Assembly: GCA_009773205.1 (NCBI GenBank)
Contig: WPAE01000007.1
Coordinates: 1-64,000 of the forward strand
Direction of reading: 5' to 3'
Source of the DNA: Ignavibacteria bacterium
GTDB lineage: Bacteria; Bacteroidota; Ignavibacteria; Ignavibacteriales; Melioribacteraceae
DNA: 64,000 nucleotides
Below, one piece after another: positions 2,984 through 61,309 of this stretch. Position 1 is the stretch's first letter. Each line of letters begins with the position of its first letter. The notes under the pieces are model-generated. The model was not told the DNA's origin. It was given only the letters and a program-made list of their open reading frames with translations, and did no database searches. The translations under genes were made by a program, and so were the position numbers.

Positions 2984-3016
2984 TTTTTCCTCTTTCTCTA
3001 AGTAGAGATTTTATAT

Positions 3017-3110
3017 GGCACTTCTAAAAACTGTTATTTTAAAAAATTCATGCAAAGACGCAAAGAAAACGCAAAGAGCGCCAAGAAAGTTGTGGTTTTT
3101 AGAAGCGCCC
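3017..3110. repeat. Palindromic element family A, copy 1
   Basis: 94 bp element with imperfect terminal inverted repeats of the form GGC(A/G)CTTCTAAAAAC. Reverse-complemented, its interior aligns with the copies at 17640-17735 and 58316-58414, including the TTTGCG-rich and TTTTAAAA parts. Its right end supplies the G of the TAG stop codon of tkt. No coding capacity. It is most likely a non-autonomous (MITE-like) element; the short flanks are AT-rich and a target duplication cannot be defined with certainty. Confidence 0.7.
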
Positions 3111-17309: not shown

Positions 17310-17639
17310 CTTCTCTCCAATTAAATGTGAGTAGATAAAGTTTGTTTTTTAGTTAATTAATCGTTTACTTTATCGTTGAAATAAAAATCCAAAAAAAATC
17401 TTAATTAATCAACTATGTAGAAAAATATTTTTTGAGTGAAAAATCCACAGAAACACAAAAGTAGGATTAAAAGAAAGTAAGTGAAAAGCATAGTCTTCGG
17501 TAATCTAAATTATTATGTAGAGTCCAGATTTGGTTATATATTTCTCAAATATACCTTCCAAAGTGTATTTTTGGTTCTTATTAGCAAGAACATTTTTTCT
17601 GCTTTAGTAAGTTTTTTCAAATTTATCTACCATGTTTAT
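17310..17639. other. Leader region upstream of the uronate cluster
   Basis: About 330 bp of very AT-rich DNA upstream (minus-strand sense) of the transporter gene. It should hold the promoter of the uronate cluster. Two CGAT copies flank AAAGTAAA at 17361-17380 (minus-strand reading), which might be part of an operator, but no convincing LacI- or GntR-type palindrome is visible. A 73-codon open frame on the plus strand (17481-17702) has biased hydrophobic content and runs into the repeat; it is not treated as a gene. Confidence 0.35.
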
Positions 17640-17735
17640 GGCACCTCTAAAAATATCAATTTCCTTTGCGGGCTTTCCTTTTTCTTTGTGTTCTTAGCGT
17701 GAAATATTTTAAAACATAAGTTTTTAGAGGTGCCC
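17640..17735. repeat. Palindromic element family A, copy 2
   Basis: 96 bp with 14-bp terminal inverted repeats GGCACCTCTAAAAA, perfect at both ends. Flanked by TTTAT on both sides (17635-17639 and 17736-17740), a possible 5-bp target duplication. Its interior (TATCAATTTCCTTTGCGGGC, then GAAATATTTTAAAACA) aligns closely with copy 3 read on the other strand. It ends 14 bp from the stop codon of the GH18-like gene. No coding capacity. Confidence 0.8.
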
Positions 17736-23477: not shown

Positions 23478-23668
23478 TTTTGATTCCTATGTTAAAAGCA
23501 TTATAATGCCCGTTGCCAACCGAAGTTTCGCACTCTATGATTTCTGAATGCCCCGCATACCAAAGAAAATTATTGGTAACTTGTAAAATAAAAACTTTGT
23601 GGCGAAAGAAAAAAACAAGAAACTGAGCCACAATACCTAAGACACCAAATTCACCAAGGAATATTCAT

Positions 23669-23767
23669 GAGCCTACTATAAAAAGGTATTTCGGATGAAA
23701 AAATGCTTTGATTATTGCTCAAATTCAAAGTGCAAAAACTCAATTTGAGGCTTTTTAGAGTAGGCGC
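23669..23767. repeat. Palindromic element family B, copy 1
   Basis: 99 bp with 17-bp terminal inverted repeats GAGCCTACTATAAAAAG / CTTTTTAGAGTAGGCGC (two mismatches). An internal CTCAAATT / AATTTGAG pair can form a second hairpin. The core is identical to the copy at 60097-60190 and differs from the reverse-oriented copy at 32833-32931 by one internal base. No coding capacity. The rest of 23478-23865 is AT-rich and carries no recognisable gene. Confidence 0.85.
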
Positions 23768-23865
23768 AGATACTAAATTTTGCATTTTTTACATCACAAG
23801 AATAAGAACTTTACTTGCATAATTCATCCTTCGAACATAAATTGCTACAATTAAAAAATGAATAA

Positions 23866-32748: not shown

Positions 32749-32832
32749 TCATTCTTAGAACACATCGAGAAAATTGAGCATTTAGAAAACAACTACTTGG
32801 GCGGTCTCAAACAATTCGACTTCTTTATTTAT

Positions 32833-32931
32833 GAGCCTACTCTAAAAAGCCTCAAATTGAGTTTTTGCACTTTGAATTTGAGCAATAATCAAAACATTTT
32901 TTCATCCGAAATACCTTTTTATAGTAGGCTC
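32833..32931. repeat. Palindromic element family B, copy 2 (reverse orientation)
   Basis: 99 bp bounded by GAGCCTAC and GTAGGCTC; the terminal repeats match over 17 bp with one mismatch. Read on the minus strand it equals copy 1 apart from one internal substitution and the terminal base. Its right border TGAGCC (minus strand) supplies the TGA stop codon of msrB. Confidence 0.88.
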
Positions 32932-33442
32932 ATTTATTCCTTTTTTCAAATTTTATAGAAATAGAATTAATGCAATATCTAATTCCGGTTGGTTTAGGCC
33001 CGTCATCAAATACATGCCCCAAATGTCCGCCGCAGCCAGCGCACATTACTTCTATTCGGTGCATACCGTAGCTCAAATCATCTTTAGTAATAATATTTTT
33101 ACTGCTAATTATATCGCTAAAACTTGGCCATCCGCATCCTGCATCAAATTTCTTTTGAGAATCAAACAAAACTTCTTGGCAGGCGGCACATTTATAAACG
33201 CCAACTTCAAAGGCATTCCAATATTTGCCTGTAAATGGATGCTCAGTTCCCTTCTCTCGTAAAACTTTATACTCTTCTGGAGTCAAAATTTCTTTCCATT
33301 CTTTTTCACTCTTTTCAAATTTTTTGTTCATTGTTTTTCCTTTCGAGGAAGAATTTTTGCTGAAATTTTGAGCAGCTATTGAAGTAAATGCAACAAGTGA
33401 TAAAATGAGAAGTGTAATAAACCTATTTGCTAAGCTAATCAT
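32930..33442 (-). CDS. msrB: Peptide-methionine (R)-S-oxide reductase, exported form
   Basis: Reduces methionine-R-sulfoxide in proteins. 170 residues: an N-terminal signal peptide (about 1-25, ending SIAAQ), a short Ser/Lys linker, and a complete MsrB domain with two zinc CxxC pairs (CAAC and CAGC) and the catalytic Cys in GIRYCINSISIKF. A second ATG at residue 38 (genomic 33331) is preceded by the excellent SD AAAGGAAAAACA and would yield a 133-residue protein, the size of cytoplasmic MsrB. The stop codon TGA is contributed by the border of a family B repeat. Both starts may be used. Confidence 0.93.
   Translation of the reverse strand: MISLANRFITLLILSLVAFTSIAAQNFSKNSSSKGKTMNKKFEKSEKEWKEILTPEEYKVLREKGTEHPFTGKYWNAFEVGVYKCAACQEVLFDSQKKFDAGCGWPSFSDIISSKNIITKDDLSYGMHRIEVMCAGCGGHLGHVFDDGPKPTGIRYCINSISIKFEKRNK
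33331..33345 (-). promoter_or_regulatory. Internal ribosome-binding site and start of msrB
   Basis: On the minus strand AAAGGA is followed by AAACA and ATG, an ideal spacing. The predicted product begins right before the MsrB domain and lacks the signal peptide. The upstream start at 33442 has only a weak SD (AAGCAAG). A site this good inside a coding region suggests real use. Confidence 0.6.
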
Positions 33443-34508: not shown

Positions 34509-34724
34509 TGAGCCTACTCTAAAAAACCATGATCATTATTAAAAATGTCGTTTTCGACTTACCAGCCCTACCCTCCATAAAACGGCGGGCAAGAGGGTGG
34601 ACAAGCCCGCCTGCCTCATCAGTCTAACCTTAGCGGGCAGGAAATCGTAAACAGAAATTGTCAAAACGACCTTTCATGCCCGGCATGTTTGGTCTAAAAA
34701 GGCAGGCGAGTTAGATTCGGCTCA
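34509..34724. repeat. Layered inverted-repeat region related to family B
   Basis: About 216 bp bounded by TGAGCC (34509) and GGCTCA (34724). Inside lie GTCGTTTT (34547) / AAAACGAC (34663) and further in GGCGGGC (34584) / GCCCGCC (34605) plus CTACCCTC-like and GAGGGTGG arms. The left 22 bases match the family B end (GAGCCTACTCTAAAAAA); the rest is GC-rich and unrelated to the other copies. It looks like a composite of successively inserted palindromes. No gene is seen in 34445-34803. Confidence 0.6.
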
Positions 34725-46006: not shown

Positions 46007-46122
46007 TAAACAGTTTCATCAAATACTTCTATTAGCTAAATTGAATATGTAATTCTTCATCCGCTTTATCTAAAGATTAAAAATGCAGCGAACAAATCTT
46101 TCTTGGAGTGCAGATAATAATA

Positions 46123-49023
46123 ATGACTCTTAGCTGGAACGAAATCCGAAAACGCGCAATTGAGTTTTCTAAAGAATGGGAAGATGAATCGCGTGAGCAC
46201 GCCGAAGCGAAATCTTTTTGGGATTCATTTTTTAGCATCTTTGGCATTTCCCGCAAACGGCTCGCAAGTTTTGAAGAGCCTGTTAAGAATTTCAATAAAG
46301 AACAAGGATTTATTGATCTATTCTGGAAAAGCAACCTTATCGTTGAACATAAATCAAAAGGAAAAGATTTAGATAAAGCTTACAGCCAAGCACTTGCCTA
46401 CTTTGGCGGACTAAACGAAGAAGAGCTTCCTAAGTATGTAATCGTTTCAGATTTTGCCCGCTTCCGACTTTATGATATTGAAGCAGATACGCATCACGAG
46501 TTTACACTTAAAGAATTACCAAAAAATATTCACCGGTTTGGTTTTATACTTGGTTATCAAAAGAAAACATATAAAGAAGAAGATCCGGTAAACATCAAAG
46601 CGGCAGAAATGATGTCTAAACTGCACGATGCACTTCTTGATAGCGGTTACTCAGGCCATCAGTTAGAAGTATTTTTAGTCCGCATTCTATTCTGCCTCTT
46701 TGCCGATGATACAGGAATTTTTAACAAAGACATTTTTTCTTTCTACATAGAAAATAAAACAAAAATTGACGGCTCCGATCTTGGGATGCATCTTGCAATA
46801 ATTTTTCAAACCCTTAACGCAGATGAAAATTTGCGACAAAAAAATCTTGATGAAGACCTAGCCGCGTTTCCTTATGTAAACGGAAAACTATTCGAAGAAC
46901 ATTTTCCTGTACCGTCGTTCGATAGCAACATGCGTAAAATTCTTATTGGAGCTATGGAATTTAATTGGAGCAATATTTCTCCGGCTATCTTCGGTTCAAT
47001 GTTTCAGTATGTTATTGATAAGGATAAAAGGCGTAACCTTGGCGCACATTACACATCCGAGAAAAACATTTTGAAACTAACTAAATCTCTTTTCCTTGAT
47101 GAACTATATGATGAGTTTGAAAAAGCAAAAAAAAGCATTGCAAGGTTAGAAGCTCTGCACACTAAAATTGCAAAACTGAAATTCTTTGACCCGGCTTGCG
47201 GCTGCGGTAATTTTTTAATTATCACTTACCGCGAATTACGCCTTCTCGAAATTGAAATCCTCAAAGAGATTTTTCGGCTTCGGAAAAACGAACAGCTCGA
47301 GTTAAATGTTCAAGAGCTTTCTAAAATTGATGTGGACAGCATGTTTGGGATTGAGTACGAAGAATTTCCAGCTCGCATTGCAGAAGTTGCGCTCTGGCTT
47401 ACGGATCATCAATGCAACGTACGTTTAAGCGAAGAGTTCGGGCAGTACTTCCGCCGTTTACCACTTAAAAAATCACCAAATATTATTCACGGAAACGCAC
47501 TCAGAATTGATTGGTTAAAGCTCGTTTCTGAAGTAGATATTGATATAACAGCAAGCACCACAAATGTTTTTGTTAATGAACCTCTTGCTGCTTATAACAC
47601 GGTGAATGTGTTTACTAAAGAAGTAAACATTGTTAATAGAAAACCAGAAGCGCCTTTGCAAGTAAAAGGAGGTTTCGATTACATACTTGGTAATCCTCCT
47701 TTTGTTGCTAAGAAAAATAGAACGAAAGAACAAAACGAAGACATGGCATTAGTATGTGGTAACGTGAAAAATTATGGATTGCTTGATTACGTTTCCGCTT
47801 GGTATATAAAAGCCGCGCACTACTTGAACAATAATAGCACCCTAAAACCCGCCTCAACCAAAGTTGCGTTTGTTTCTACAAATTCTATTTCACAAGGTGA
47901 ACAAGTTGGTGCGCTGTGGAATTATTTGCTTAGTCAAAACATAAAAATTCATTTTGCACACAGAACATTTAAGTGGTCTAACGAAGCACGCGGGCAGGCG
48001 GCTGTTTATTGTGTTATCGTAGGCTTCTCTAATTTTGATATAACTACAAAGTACATTTTTGATTATGAAACTCCGCAGAGCGAGCCTCACGAAGTTAGAG
48101 CAAAAAATATCAATCCATATTTAGTTGATACAGATGATATTACAATCGAAAACCGGAACGAGCCAATTTGTAATGTACCATCAATTTCTTTTGGCAGTAT
48201 GCCTAACGATGATGGTAATTTTCTTTTTTCGGATGATGAAAAAGAAGATTTTCTTCTTAAAGAACCGAAAGCAAAAAAATATATTAAACCACTTATTAGC
48301 GCTAAAGAGTTTTTAAATGGTGAAAAAAGATGGTGCCTTTGGTTAGAAAATATTTCTCCCGCAGAGCTTAGAAGCTTGACTGCTGTCTTAAAGCGGGTCG
48401 AAAATGTTAAGAAGTATCGTTTAAACAGTCAAAGAGAGGCAACGGTTAAATTAGCGGCGTATCCTTATCTCTTTGGCGAAATTAGACAACCAAATAGTGA
48501 ATTCGTTCTAATTCCTCGGCACTCTTCAGAAAATAGAAAATACATTCCAATCGGCTTTTTTGATAAATCTTTTATTGCCTCCGATAGTTGCAGTATAATT
48601 CCAAAAGCAGCCTATTTTCATTTTGGCATTTTAACTTCTTTAATGCACAACACATGGATGAGGCAAGTCTGCGGAAGAATAAAAAGCGATTACCGCTATT
48701 CCAACAAACTTGTTTACAACAATTTTCCGTTTCCGCAAAGCCCAACCGAAAAACAAATCGATCGTGTAGAAAATGCCGTTAGAGAAATGCTTGCTGTAAG
48801 AGAAAAATATTTTGCAAAAGGCGCAACTCTTGCAGATTTATACGACCCCAATACAATGCCTAAAGATTTAACAGTTGCACACAAAGAAATTGATGCTTCA
48901 GTTGATGTTTGTTACCGAAAGGAAAAGTTTACAACAGAGCTTCAACGGTTAGAATATCTCTTCCAGCTATATAAGAGTTACACTCAGCCGCTACTTGGCA
49001 TAGTGAAGAAAAGAAAAAAATAA
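46123..49023 (+). CDS. Type IIL (MmeI-like) restriction-modification enzyme
   Basis: 966 residues in one chain that both cleaves DNA and methylates adenine. Endonuclease site: Asp65, Glu75 and Lys77 (FIDLFWKSNLIVEHKSKG), with the exact D-x9-ExK spacing of MmeI. A helical connector is followed by the N6-adenine methyltransferase domain with motif I FFDPACGCGNFL near 353 and motif IV NPPF near 523, then a target-recognition domain (about 620-870) and a C-terminal helical end. The ATG at 46123 has GGAG 14 nt upstream; a GTG at 46108 is an alternative. No partner methylase or specificity gene is adjacent, as expected for this class. Confidence 0.88.
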   Translation: MTLSWNEIRKRAIEFSKEWEDESREHAEAKSFWDSFFSIFGISRKRLASFEEPVKNFNKEQGFIDLFWKSNLIVEHKSKGKDLDKAYSQALAYFGGLNEEELPKYVIVSDFARFRLYDIEADTHHEFTLKELPKNIHRFGFILGYQKKTYKEEDPVNIKAAEMMSKLHDALLDSGYSGHQLEVFLVRILFCLFADDTGIFNKDIFSFYIENKTKIDGSDLGMHLAIIFQTLNADENLRQKNLDEDLAAFPYVNGKLFEEHFPVPSFDSNMRKILIGAMEFNWSNISPAIFGSMFQYVIDKDKRRNLGAHYTSEKNILKLTKSLFLDELYDEFEKAKKSIARLEALHTKIAKLKFFDPACGCGNFLIITYRELRLLEIEILKEIFRLRKNEQLELNVQELSKIDVDSMFGIEYEEFPARIAEVALWLTDHQCNVRLSEEFGQYFRRLPLKKSPNIIHGNALRIDWLKLVSEVDIDITASTTNVFVNEPLAAYNTVNVFTKEVNIVNRKPEAPLQVKGGFDYILGNPPFVAKKNRTKEQNEDMALVCGNVKNYGLLDYVSAWYIKAAHYLNNNSTLKPASTKVAFVSTNSISQGEQVGALWNYLLSQNIKIHFAHRTFKWSNEARGQAAVYCVIVGFSNFDITTKYIFDYETPQSEPHEVRAKNINPYLVDTDDITIENRNEPICNVPSISFGSMPNDDGNFLFSDDEKEDFLLKEPKAKKYIKPLISAKEFLNGEKRWCLWLENISPAELRSLTAVLKRVENVKKYRLNSQREATVKLAAYPYLFGEIRQPNSEFVLIPRHSSENRKYIPIGFFDKSFIASDSCSIIPKAAYFHFGILTSLMHNTWMRQVCGRIKSDYRYSNKLVYNNFPFPQSPTEKQIDRVENAVREMLAVREKYFAKGATLADLYDPNTMPKDLTVAHKEIDASVDVCYRKEKFTTELQRLEYLFQLYKSYTQPLLGIVKKRKK

Positions 49024-58254: not shown

Positions 58255-58315
58255 ATATTCTCTAAATTAAATGCACTCAAAACTAAATAGTAAAAGGTAT
58301 AGTATCAATAATAAT

Positions 58316-58414
58316 GGCACCTCTAAAAACTTTTGTTTTAAAATATTTCATCCCGCAAAGCGGGACAAAGAAAAGGAAAGCCCGCAAAGGAAGTTGATAT
58401 TTTTAGAGGCGCCC
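58316..58414. repeat. Palindromic element family A, copy 3
   Basis: 99 bp bounded by GGCACCTCTAAAAAC and TTTTTAGAGGCGCCC. Read on the minus strand it aligns with copy 2 over nearly its whole length, differing mainly in a central CCCGCTTTGCGGG hairpin. It lies 61 bp upstream of the GH71/99-like start codon (minus strand) and 105 bp past the DUF58 stop. Candidate flanking duplication ATAA(T/G). No gene is seen in 58255-58519. Confidence 0.8.
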
Positions 58415-59928: not shown

Positions 59929-60074
59929 TGTAAGCCCATTTACTTTTTTACTGTGTAAATATACATTCAAATGATACTTTTTAAAAGTTTCTCAAAAAGT
60001 TTCCTTAATAAGAGCTGCAAAGATGAAAAAGAGAATCAATAATATTTTCACGTTTCTTTAGAATGCAAACTTAA

Positions 60075-60262
60075 GGGCACCTCTAAAAATATCAATGAGC
60101 CTACTATAAAAAGGTATTTCGGATGAAAAAATGCTTTGATTATTGCTCAAATTCAAAGTGCAAAAACTCAATTTGAGGCTTTTTAGAGTACAAAAAATTA
60201 GGTTGACGCTAATGCGCTTTGCGGGATTAAAATTTTTGAAATACTAATTTTTAGGGGTGCCC
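60075..60262. repeat. Palindromic element family A, copy 4, interrupted by a family B element
   Basis: Outer ends GGGCACCTCTAAAAAT and AATTTTTAGGGGTGCCC. TTAA lies on both sides, and the outside inverted repeat extends further to TGCAAACTTAA. Removing the inserted family B unit (60097-60190) leaves about 94 bp that aligns with copies 2 and 3 (TATCAA, then GCTTTGCGGGATTAAAATTTTT). The right flanking TTAA supplies the TAA stop of hydE. Confidence 0.85.
60097..60190. repeat. Palindromic element family B, copy 3, nested in family A
   Basis: 94 bp identical to the family B copy at 23669-23762. The last five bases of the right terminal repeat (GGCTC) are missing, so the right end stops at GAGTA. 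It sits between TATCAA and CAAAAA of the host family A element. Confidence 0.9.
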
Positions 60263-61309
60263 TTAAGTTTGCACGTCTATTTTTAATGAATCTCCACGCT
60301 TGTAAGAAATTTTTCTCCCCAATGCTTCAATTCTTTTTTTAAGGCGCTCTGTACTAACAAGCGGATCGTCTGTGCTGCCACGCTTGCCGGGATAGATTTT
60401 ATACTGCTCGCGGTACGGAAATGGCGTTAAATCTGGCATTACAACATTAGCGCCGGCAGTTAGTCCTTTTTCGCGCCCTAACGCGTCAATAGTATCCAAT
60501 GCAGTTGTAGCTGGAATGTGAACTTGTTTCAGTACTATTCTTGCAACAGCGGTTACTTTTAAAGTTAATTCAGCTTCGCCAATATTTTTGTTTTGATAAG
60601 GTGTTTGCGGCGATGGAATAAATGGTCCAAATGCTGCCATATCTAAATCAAGAGATTTGCATAAAAGAATATCGTCTGCTAAATCTTCAACTGTCTGCAT
60701 CGGAAGTCCAATTAAATTACCAGAACCAACTTGATAACCAATTGATTTCAAAAACTTCAAATGCTCTAGTCTCTCAGAAAGGTTCTGCTTAAAATGATAA
60801 GTTTCATAAAGTTTTGGATTTGCAGTTTCATGTTTGAGCAAGTATCTATCTGCGCCTGCAATTTTCCAAGCGCGGTATTCATCAAAAGTTCTTTCGCCCA
60901 AACTAAGCGTTATTGCTGCATTGGATTTTTGCCTTATCTGATAAATGATGTAAGAAATAATGTCAGTATCGAAATGAGCATCTTCTCCGGATTGAATTAC
61001 GATGGTAAAAATTCCAAGATTAGTAATTACGCGCGCTGTTTCAATTACTTCTTCTGGTGTCATTCTAAAACGAGGCAGAGCATCATTTTCTTGGCGAAGC
61101 CCGCAGTAAACACAATTTTGTTCGCAGAAATTAGATATATCAATTATACCGCGAAGATGAACTTCATCACCGCAATACTGAGAGCGAACTTCATCTGCAC
61201 GAGAGTATAACAAATTCAGTTCTTCTTGATCTTTGAGATTGAGAAGAAAAATAATTTCATCGCGGGTAAGTTCTTCTTTATATAAAAGTTGATTCAAATT
61301 CATAATCAA
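60263..61309 (-). CDS. hydE: [FeFe]-hydrogenase maturase HydE (radical SAM)
   Basis: 348 residues. Radical-SAM cluster ligands Cys62, Cys66 and Cys69 in ISNFCEQNCVYCGLR; GEDAHFDTDI and LSLGERTFDEYRAWKIAGADRYLLKHET (in parts) are HydE-specific blocks, and a C-terminal RYREQ-like PFPYREQYKIYPGKRG segment completes the barrel. HydE acts with HydG and HydF to build the 2Fe subcluster of [FeFe] hydrogenase. Its ATG overlaps the hydG stop (ATGA). The stop codon TAA is part of the TTAA flank of a family A repeat. Confidence 0.93.
   Translation of the reverse strand: MIMNLNQLLYKEELTRDEIIFLLNLKDQEELNLLYSRADEVRSQYCGDEVHLRGIIDISNFCEQNCVYCGLRQENDALPRFRMTPEEVIETARVITNLGIFTIVIQSGEDAHFDTDIISYIIYQIRQKSNAAITLSLGERTFDEYRAWKIAGADRYLLKHETANPKLYETYHFKQNLSERLEHLKFLKSIGYQVGSGNLIGLPMQTVEDLADDILLCKSLDLDMAAFGPFIPSPQTPYQNKNIGEAELTLKVTAVARIVLKQVHIPATTALDTIDALGREKGLTAGANVVMPDLTPFPYREQYKIYPGKRGSTDDPLVSTERLKKRIEALGRKISYKRGDSLKIDVQT

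Follow-up and report, generated by a model that had tools for sequence, protein, structure and literature searches.

Directly behind hydE, a hydrogenase-maturation gene (60263-61309; NCBIfam TIGR03956), one palindromic element lies within another, raising the question of how such a nest is formed and whether it dates the two repeat families relative to each other. The locus belongs to the window, i.e., the whole 64,000-nucleotide stretch of DNA analyzed here. The nest itself is real: a family A element with outer ends GGGCACCTCTAAAAAT ... ATTTTTAGGGGTGCCC, inverted over 15 bp and bounded by a TTAA duplication, is interrupted at position 60096 by a family B element of type B1, the start of which is immediately preceded by the TATCAA of A. 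Positions 60095-60190 are 100% identical over 96 bp to 23667-23762; the 94 bp of identity to a copy at 23669 reported in an initial annotation of this DNA was therefore right, albeit slightly low. That annotation also described A as split by a B unit. B does interrupt A, but not alone, as the truncated B runs into ~24 nt of a third family. Since A, B1, and a third-family end fragment are found together at 60075-60262, three mobile families meet at this locus (Table 1).

Table 1. Positions of repeat elements and target duplications in the window
Feature	Position	Strand	Remarks
Family A relative	3016-3110		Duplication TATA
Family A copy, 97 bp	17639-17735		Duplication TTTA
Family B1 copy	23668-23768	+	Both ends present, matching duplication absent
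Complete B1 copy, 101 bp	32832-32932	-	Duplication TTTA/TAAA
B2 element, GC-rich interior, B ends	34509-34724	+	Duplication TTTA
Family A copy, 100 bp	58315-58414		Duplication ATAA
Left 4-bp target duplication of family A	60071-60074		TTAA
Family A element, interrupted	60075-60262		A parts 60075-60095 and 60215-60262
Target used by B	60091-60096		ATCAAT, the single ATNNAT of standard A; 60096 is also the first base of B
Family B1 element, 95/101 bp	60096-60190	+	Lacks terminal GGCTCA and right duplication
Third-family (IS4-type) end fragment, ~24 nt	60191-60214	-	Reverse complement CATTAGCGTCAACCTAATTTTTTG
Right target duplication of family A	60263-60266		TTAA; 60263-60265 is also the hydE stop codon

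We consider it very likely that A and B are two MITE families, namely, short non-autonomous DNA transposons with inverted ends that would be moved in trans by a transposase of the cut-and-paste type. According to this proposal, A would have entered a TTAA at the 3' terminus of hydE, thereby duplicating this tetranucleotide; B would have inserted at the one ATNNAT site of A, 15-20 bp from the A end; an IS4-type element would also have struck the center of this A copy; and either a subsequent deletion or a join made locally in the assembly would have brought the inner right end of B up against the final ~24 nt of the IS4-type element.

Both families are present in at least 40 genomic copies each (for B, this count refers to B1), and the pattern of the B end was matched 127 times, compared with 2 matches for a reversed control, so neither family is a chance repeat. 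Copies outside the window, on which the initial annotation had made the case for mobility depend, are abundant for A and B1 alike. Family A elements have terminal inverted repeats (GGGCACCTCTAAAAA) and lengths of 81-258 bp including insertions (modes of 97 and 101), with no coding capacity. Of the 55 different complete A elements collected from the retrieved loci, 43 are flanked by the same 4 bp on both sides, against 9.8% expected if flanks were paired at random; TTAA, ATAA, and TAAA are the commonest of these duplications, and a 5-bp duplication was found in none of the 55. The site behind hydE is an outlier among A sites: it is symmetric at 18/20 bases, compared with a mean of 8.1 and a runner-up of 14, and reads GCAAACTTAAGTTTGC, a perfect palindrome, once one TTAA copy is taken out.

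Likewise, family B elements have terminal inverted repeats (TGAGCCTACTCTAAAAAG; the B end is also given as TGAGCCTRCTCTAAAAAGG) and span 40-246 bp, with a mode of 101 and, again, no coding capacity. Two local types share the same outer ends, i.e., B1 (99-102 bp) and B2, which is variable, contains GC-rich palindromic inserts, and has a minimal form of 40-41 bp that was seen six times. GC-rich palindromes of the CCTGCCCGCC...GGCGGGCAGG type were found as recurrent insertions in B-type elements, either at the right end or in the interior, both at three individual loci (L168, L170, and L191) and in many B2 copies of this genome (G000). Identical 4-bp flanks were present in 44 of 66 complete B-type elements versus 21% expected, and the target was A-TNNA-T (ATNNAT) in all 44. 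Among relatives, 23 of 35 B elements showed a duplication, with A and T flanks in 21 of those 23. The 44 local cases fit a 4-bp as well as a 6-bp duplication; a 4-bp duplication is favored because two of the 23 cases in relatives fit 4 bp only. Against plain transposition stand the 22/66 elements that lack matching flanks, together with the B1 copies—many in number, including nine individually recorded loci—that are missing 6-10 bases at exactly one end; no B copy lacking both ends was apparent among the 40 matches listed. In the window, the TGA end of the B1 copy at 32832-32932 is the stop codon of an msrB-type gene (32930-33442; SelR domain). Elsewhere in the window, a 119-aa open reading frame of the 23S_rRNA_IVP/four-helix-bundle type (PF05635; 36296-36655) lies between nuoC and nuoD in a complex I operon, and a single MmeI-type restriction-modification gene (46108-49023) has nuo genes on one side and an H+-pyrophosphatase gene on the other.

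The location of A and B between genes, as well as RNA folding better than that of shuffled sequences (z of -4.6 for B1 and -4.0 for A), would also be expected of structured regulatory or RNA elements, such as terminators or sRNAs, kept by selection and nested only incidentally. We regard this explanation as highly improbable, given that palindromic ends by themselves give such a fold, that no Rfam match in the window reached the gathering threshold (one match at 60106-60220, far below threshold, was disregarded), and that the 4-bp duplications, the target motif, and the absence from congeners mark A and B as insertions.

The position of B within A has a simple explanation in the target choice of B. 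The standard A consensus contains ATCAAT as its sole ATNNAT site, and six or more A copies carry B at this same site (ATTGAT), with both orientations and both types, B1 and B2, represented among them. With 60-180 A copies, 66-120 B copies, and ~3,400 intergenic ATNNAT sites (a figure scaled up from the window), target choice predicts ~1-6 such nests. As at least six were seen, there is no clear excess and no special attraction is needed; we reject special targeting of A by B. The nests are real but ordinary, requiring nothing beyond the target rule of B.

Alternatively, the nest could have formed elsewhere and arrived at hydE as one unit. Composites can move, as evidenced by relative G006, in which B harbors an A-like element flanked on each side by TTCA; three copies of this composite, 97-98% identical and with differing flanks, occur beside an uninterrupted B. 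However, the local B-in-A copies are not uniform: the subfamily of A and the type and orientation of B vary among them, indicative of separate insertions, and a second copy of the exact hydE composite was not found in genome searches. Arrival as a unit therefore seems quite improbable to us, and we retain successive insertion of A and B at hydE.

Comparison with congeners places these insertions in time. The gap between hydE and the following TPR gene measures 334 bp here and 48-62 bp in five congeners, all of which conserve the hydE-TPR-DUF58 gene order and lack both A and B at this position. Since the site is empty in 5/5 congeners, the A(B) insertion is specific to this species and, on the genus scale, young. 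The initial annotation had proposed a search for empty sites in close relatives and held that the same nest in distant relatives would make the insertion ancient; in all five congeners the site is empty, without the nest. Both families combine high copy number (at least 40 each) with this empty hydE-TPR site in five congeners. At the hydE locus itself, B was inserted after A. B1 is also young, judging from the 97% mean identity of its copies, its many perfect target duplications, and the failure to find it in the five congeners, two of which are only 75-77% complete, making this absence weaker evidence than the empty site. It may still be moving, as the initial annotation held to be probable. 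A relatives at ~80% identity are present in congeners.

The initial annotation had gone further, reading A as old and B as recent on the grounds that A copies differ more from one another. The difference in divergence was confirmed: pairwise identity averages 0.84 for A (95-102 bp class; range, 0.69-1.00) and 0.97 for complete B1 copies (minimum, 0.95). As a statement about this nest and about B1, the proposed order also stands, but it fails in general. Family A comprises both old and young subfamilies, with groups of near-identical copies reaching 99-100% identity; elsewhere in this genome (L034), a B1 copy harbors an A-type element bounded by a perfect TAAA duplication; and the three G006 composites are likewise of the A-in-B kind. 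The order of A and B insertion therefore runs both ways.

The right side of the nest involves the third family, the ends of which were also found in the CCGCAAAGCGG center of four other A copies. A complete example of ~320 bp is located at L284:1811-2133. Together with L281:1446-1740, it represents a third non-autonomous family with IS4-like ends, inserted at the center of A copies. It corresponds to MITEs of IS4-type elements: its ends (CATAGGCGTCAAC) resemble those of a resident IS4-family transposase element (L287:131-1603), so the third family has a resident candidate partner, whereas none was found for A and B among the transposases compared.

The junction of B with this fragment may reflect either a deletion or a local assembly join. 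In the latter case, the assembler would have joined two repeats at 60190/60191, and A at the true locus would contain both B and the third element, each in full. This is possible, if doubtful. The assembly (4.14 Mb in 476 contigs) has N runs beside three other B copies, meaning that some junctions may be assembler joins; a second truncated B (L211) is likewise fused to a third-family end, with a 2-3 base overlap; and "TA" is common to both sides of the window junction. Conversely, no N run is present at 60190/60191 itself, and at one locus (L003) the correct duplication directly follows a truncated B end, which a random join would not give.

What would move A and B was sought in transposases sharing their ends. 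As stated in the initial annotation, no transposase in the window has matching ends; indeed, a Pfam scan of its 48 main open reading frames found no transposase. The genome has six DDE_Tnp_1 matches, and no autonomous element with A- or B-type ends was found among its PF01609 matches, nor was an autonomous partner found in 28 contig loci that carry the B end. A full-length insertion sequence with the same terminal repeats, suggested in that annotation as a possible mobilizer, did not emerge: the four transposases tested (IS1634 twice, IS4, and IS701) have other ends. More specifically, the ends of the IS1634 elements in these genomes (TCCTGTTTTGTGC and CCTGACTTGAGC), of IS701 elements in the order (ACTACAGTTTAGACAAA, ACTGTAGTTTTGCATTT, or others), and of the resident IS4 (CATAGGCGTCAACTTAA) are not those of A and B. 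The IS4 (L091) and the second IS1634 (L093) were rejected as B transposases on the basis of these ends. On contig C106 of this genome, B2 ends flank the transposase open reading frame of another IS1634 (P0001; L092) on both sides, as do TTTA/TAAA repeats, an arrangement that would be expected if this element mobilized B. Yet the ends of related IS1634 copies are TCCTGTTTTGTGC...ACAAAACAGGA, and the element on C106 begins with the same end just inside B2. We find its role as the B transposase scarcely credible and reject it; it is an insertion sequence inserted into a B2 copy. An IS701 near a B end in another MAG (L177) was rejected as well, since both of its termini fall within the B element. 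A search for the B transposase can thus be led astray by insertion sequences within B-type elements, such as this IS1634 and this IS701.

In their short length, inverted ends, target duplications, and copy number, A and B show the defining features of MITEs, save that no autonomous partner is known for either; no description of these repeats in Ignavibacteria was found in the literature searched. The repeat unit of pneumococcus (RUP) is a 107-bp element that targets TA and has ends in common with IS630-Spn1 (PMC3049150, PMC2229807). It resembles A and B in being short and AT-rich, with inverted ends that form a single long hairpin by pairing, ~100 intergenic copies, and a target duplication (PMC3049150, PMC2229807). 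Unlike RUP, B inserts at A-TNNA-T, the 4-bp target of A is often TTAA, and no partner is known for either family; judged by target, their 4-bp duplications at A-TNNA-T or TTAA-like sites instead of TA place them outside RUP. The Correia/NEMIS elements of Neisseria (~107 and ~155 bp; PMC2229807, PMC3049150) are also short, palindromic, and MITE-like, come in several size classes, and have effects at the ends of genes. Their ends and targets are different from those of A and B, and the likeness drawn here is one of description. REPINs are not known to leave DDE-type duplications; A and B, in contrast, leave 4-bp duplications. What A and B share with REPINs and RAYT-associated repeats is that they are short palindromic repeats spread between genes (PMC3116915).

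B ends enclosing different interiors were found in further genera of the same family and elsewhere in the Ignavibacteria, the class to which most named carriers belong; these carriers include Ignavibacteriales, Melioribacter, and Melioribacteraceae assemblies. Exactly 101 bp, the length of B1, was measured in 19 of 35 elements from relatives, and this orphan family of Ignavibacteria retains that length in nine species, even though only about half of the interior positions agree. In ungapped comparison, interiors of different species are mostly 0.35-0.65 identical, with a maximum of 0.80 in the closest pair. These values commonly exceed those of shuffled sequences by 2-5 standard deviations, and the local B1 aligns in its other orientation. 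From these comparisons, B resembles a single old family whose length has undergone no net change. A bolder version, which we consider rather unlikely as a whole, holds that B may be a single old orphan mobile family of Ignavibacteria, 101 bp long in at least nine species, with interiors that have drifted to ~35-65% identity in most species pairs; interior indels would be disfavored by end-to-end spacing, a bound host protein, or an unrecognized transposase, and the family would be spread by a transposase not yet recognized. A fixed length is unnecessary for insertion in this genome, where B-type elements of 40-246 bp have good duplications. A family that spans species at fixed length while its partner has not been found offers a tractable case for how orphan MITEs persist. 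For the nest behind hydE, the cause is simple and testable: as one MITE family spreads, so do the sites at which another can land, nests form at the rate set by target choice, and the order of nesting is uninformative about the relative age of the families.
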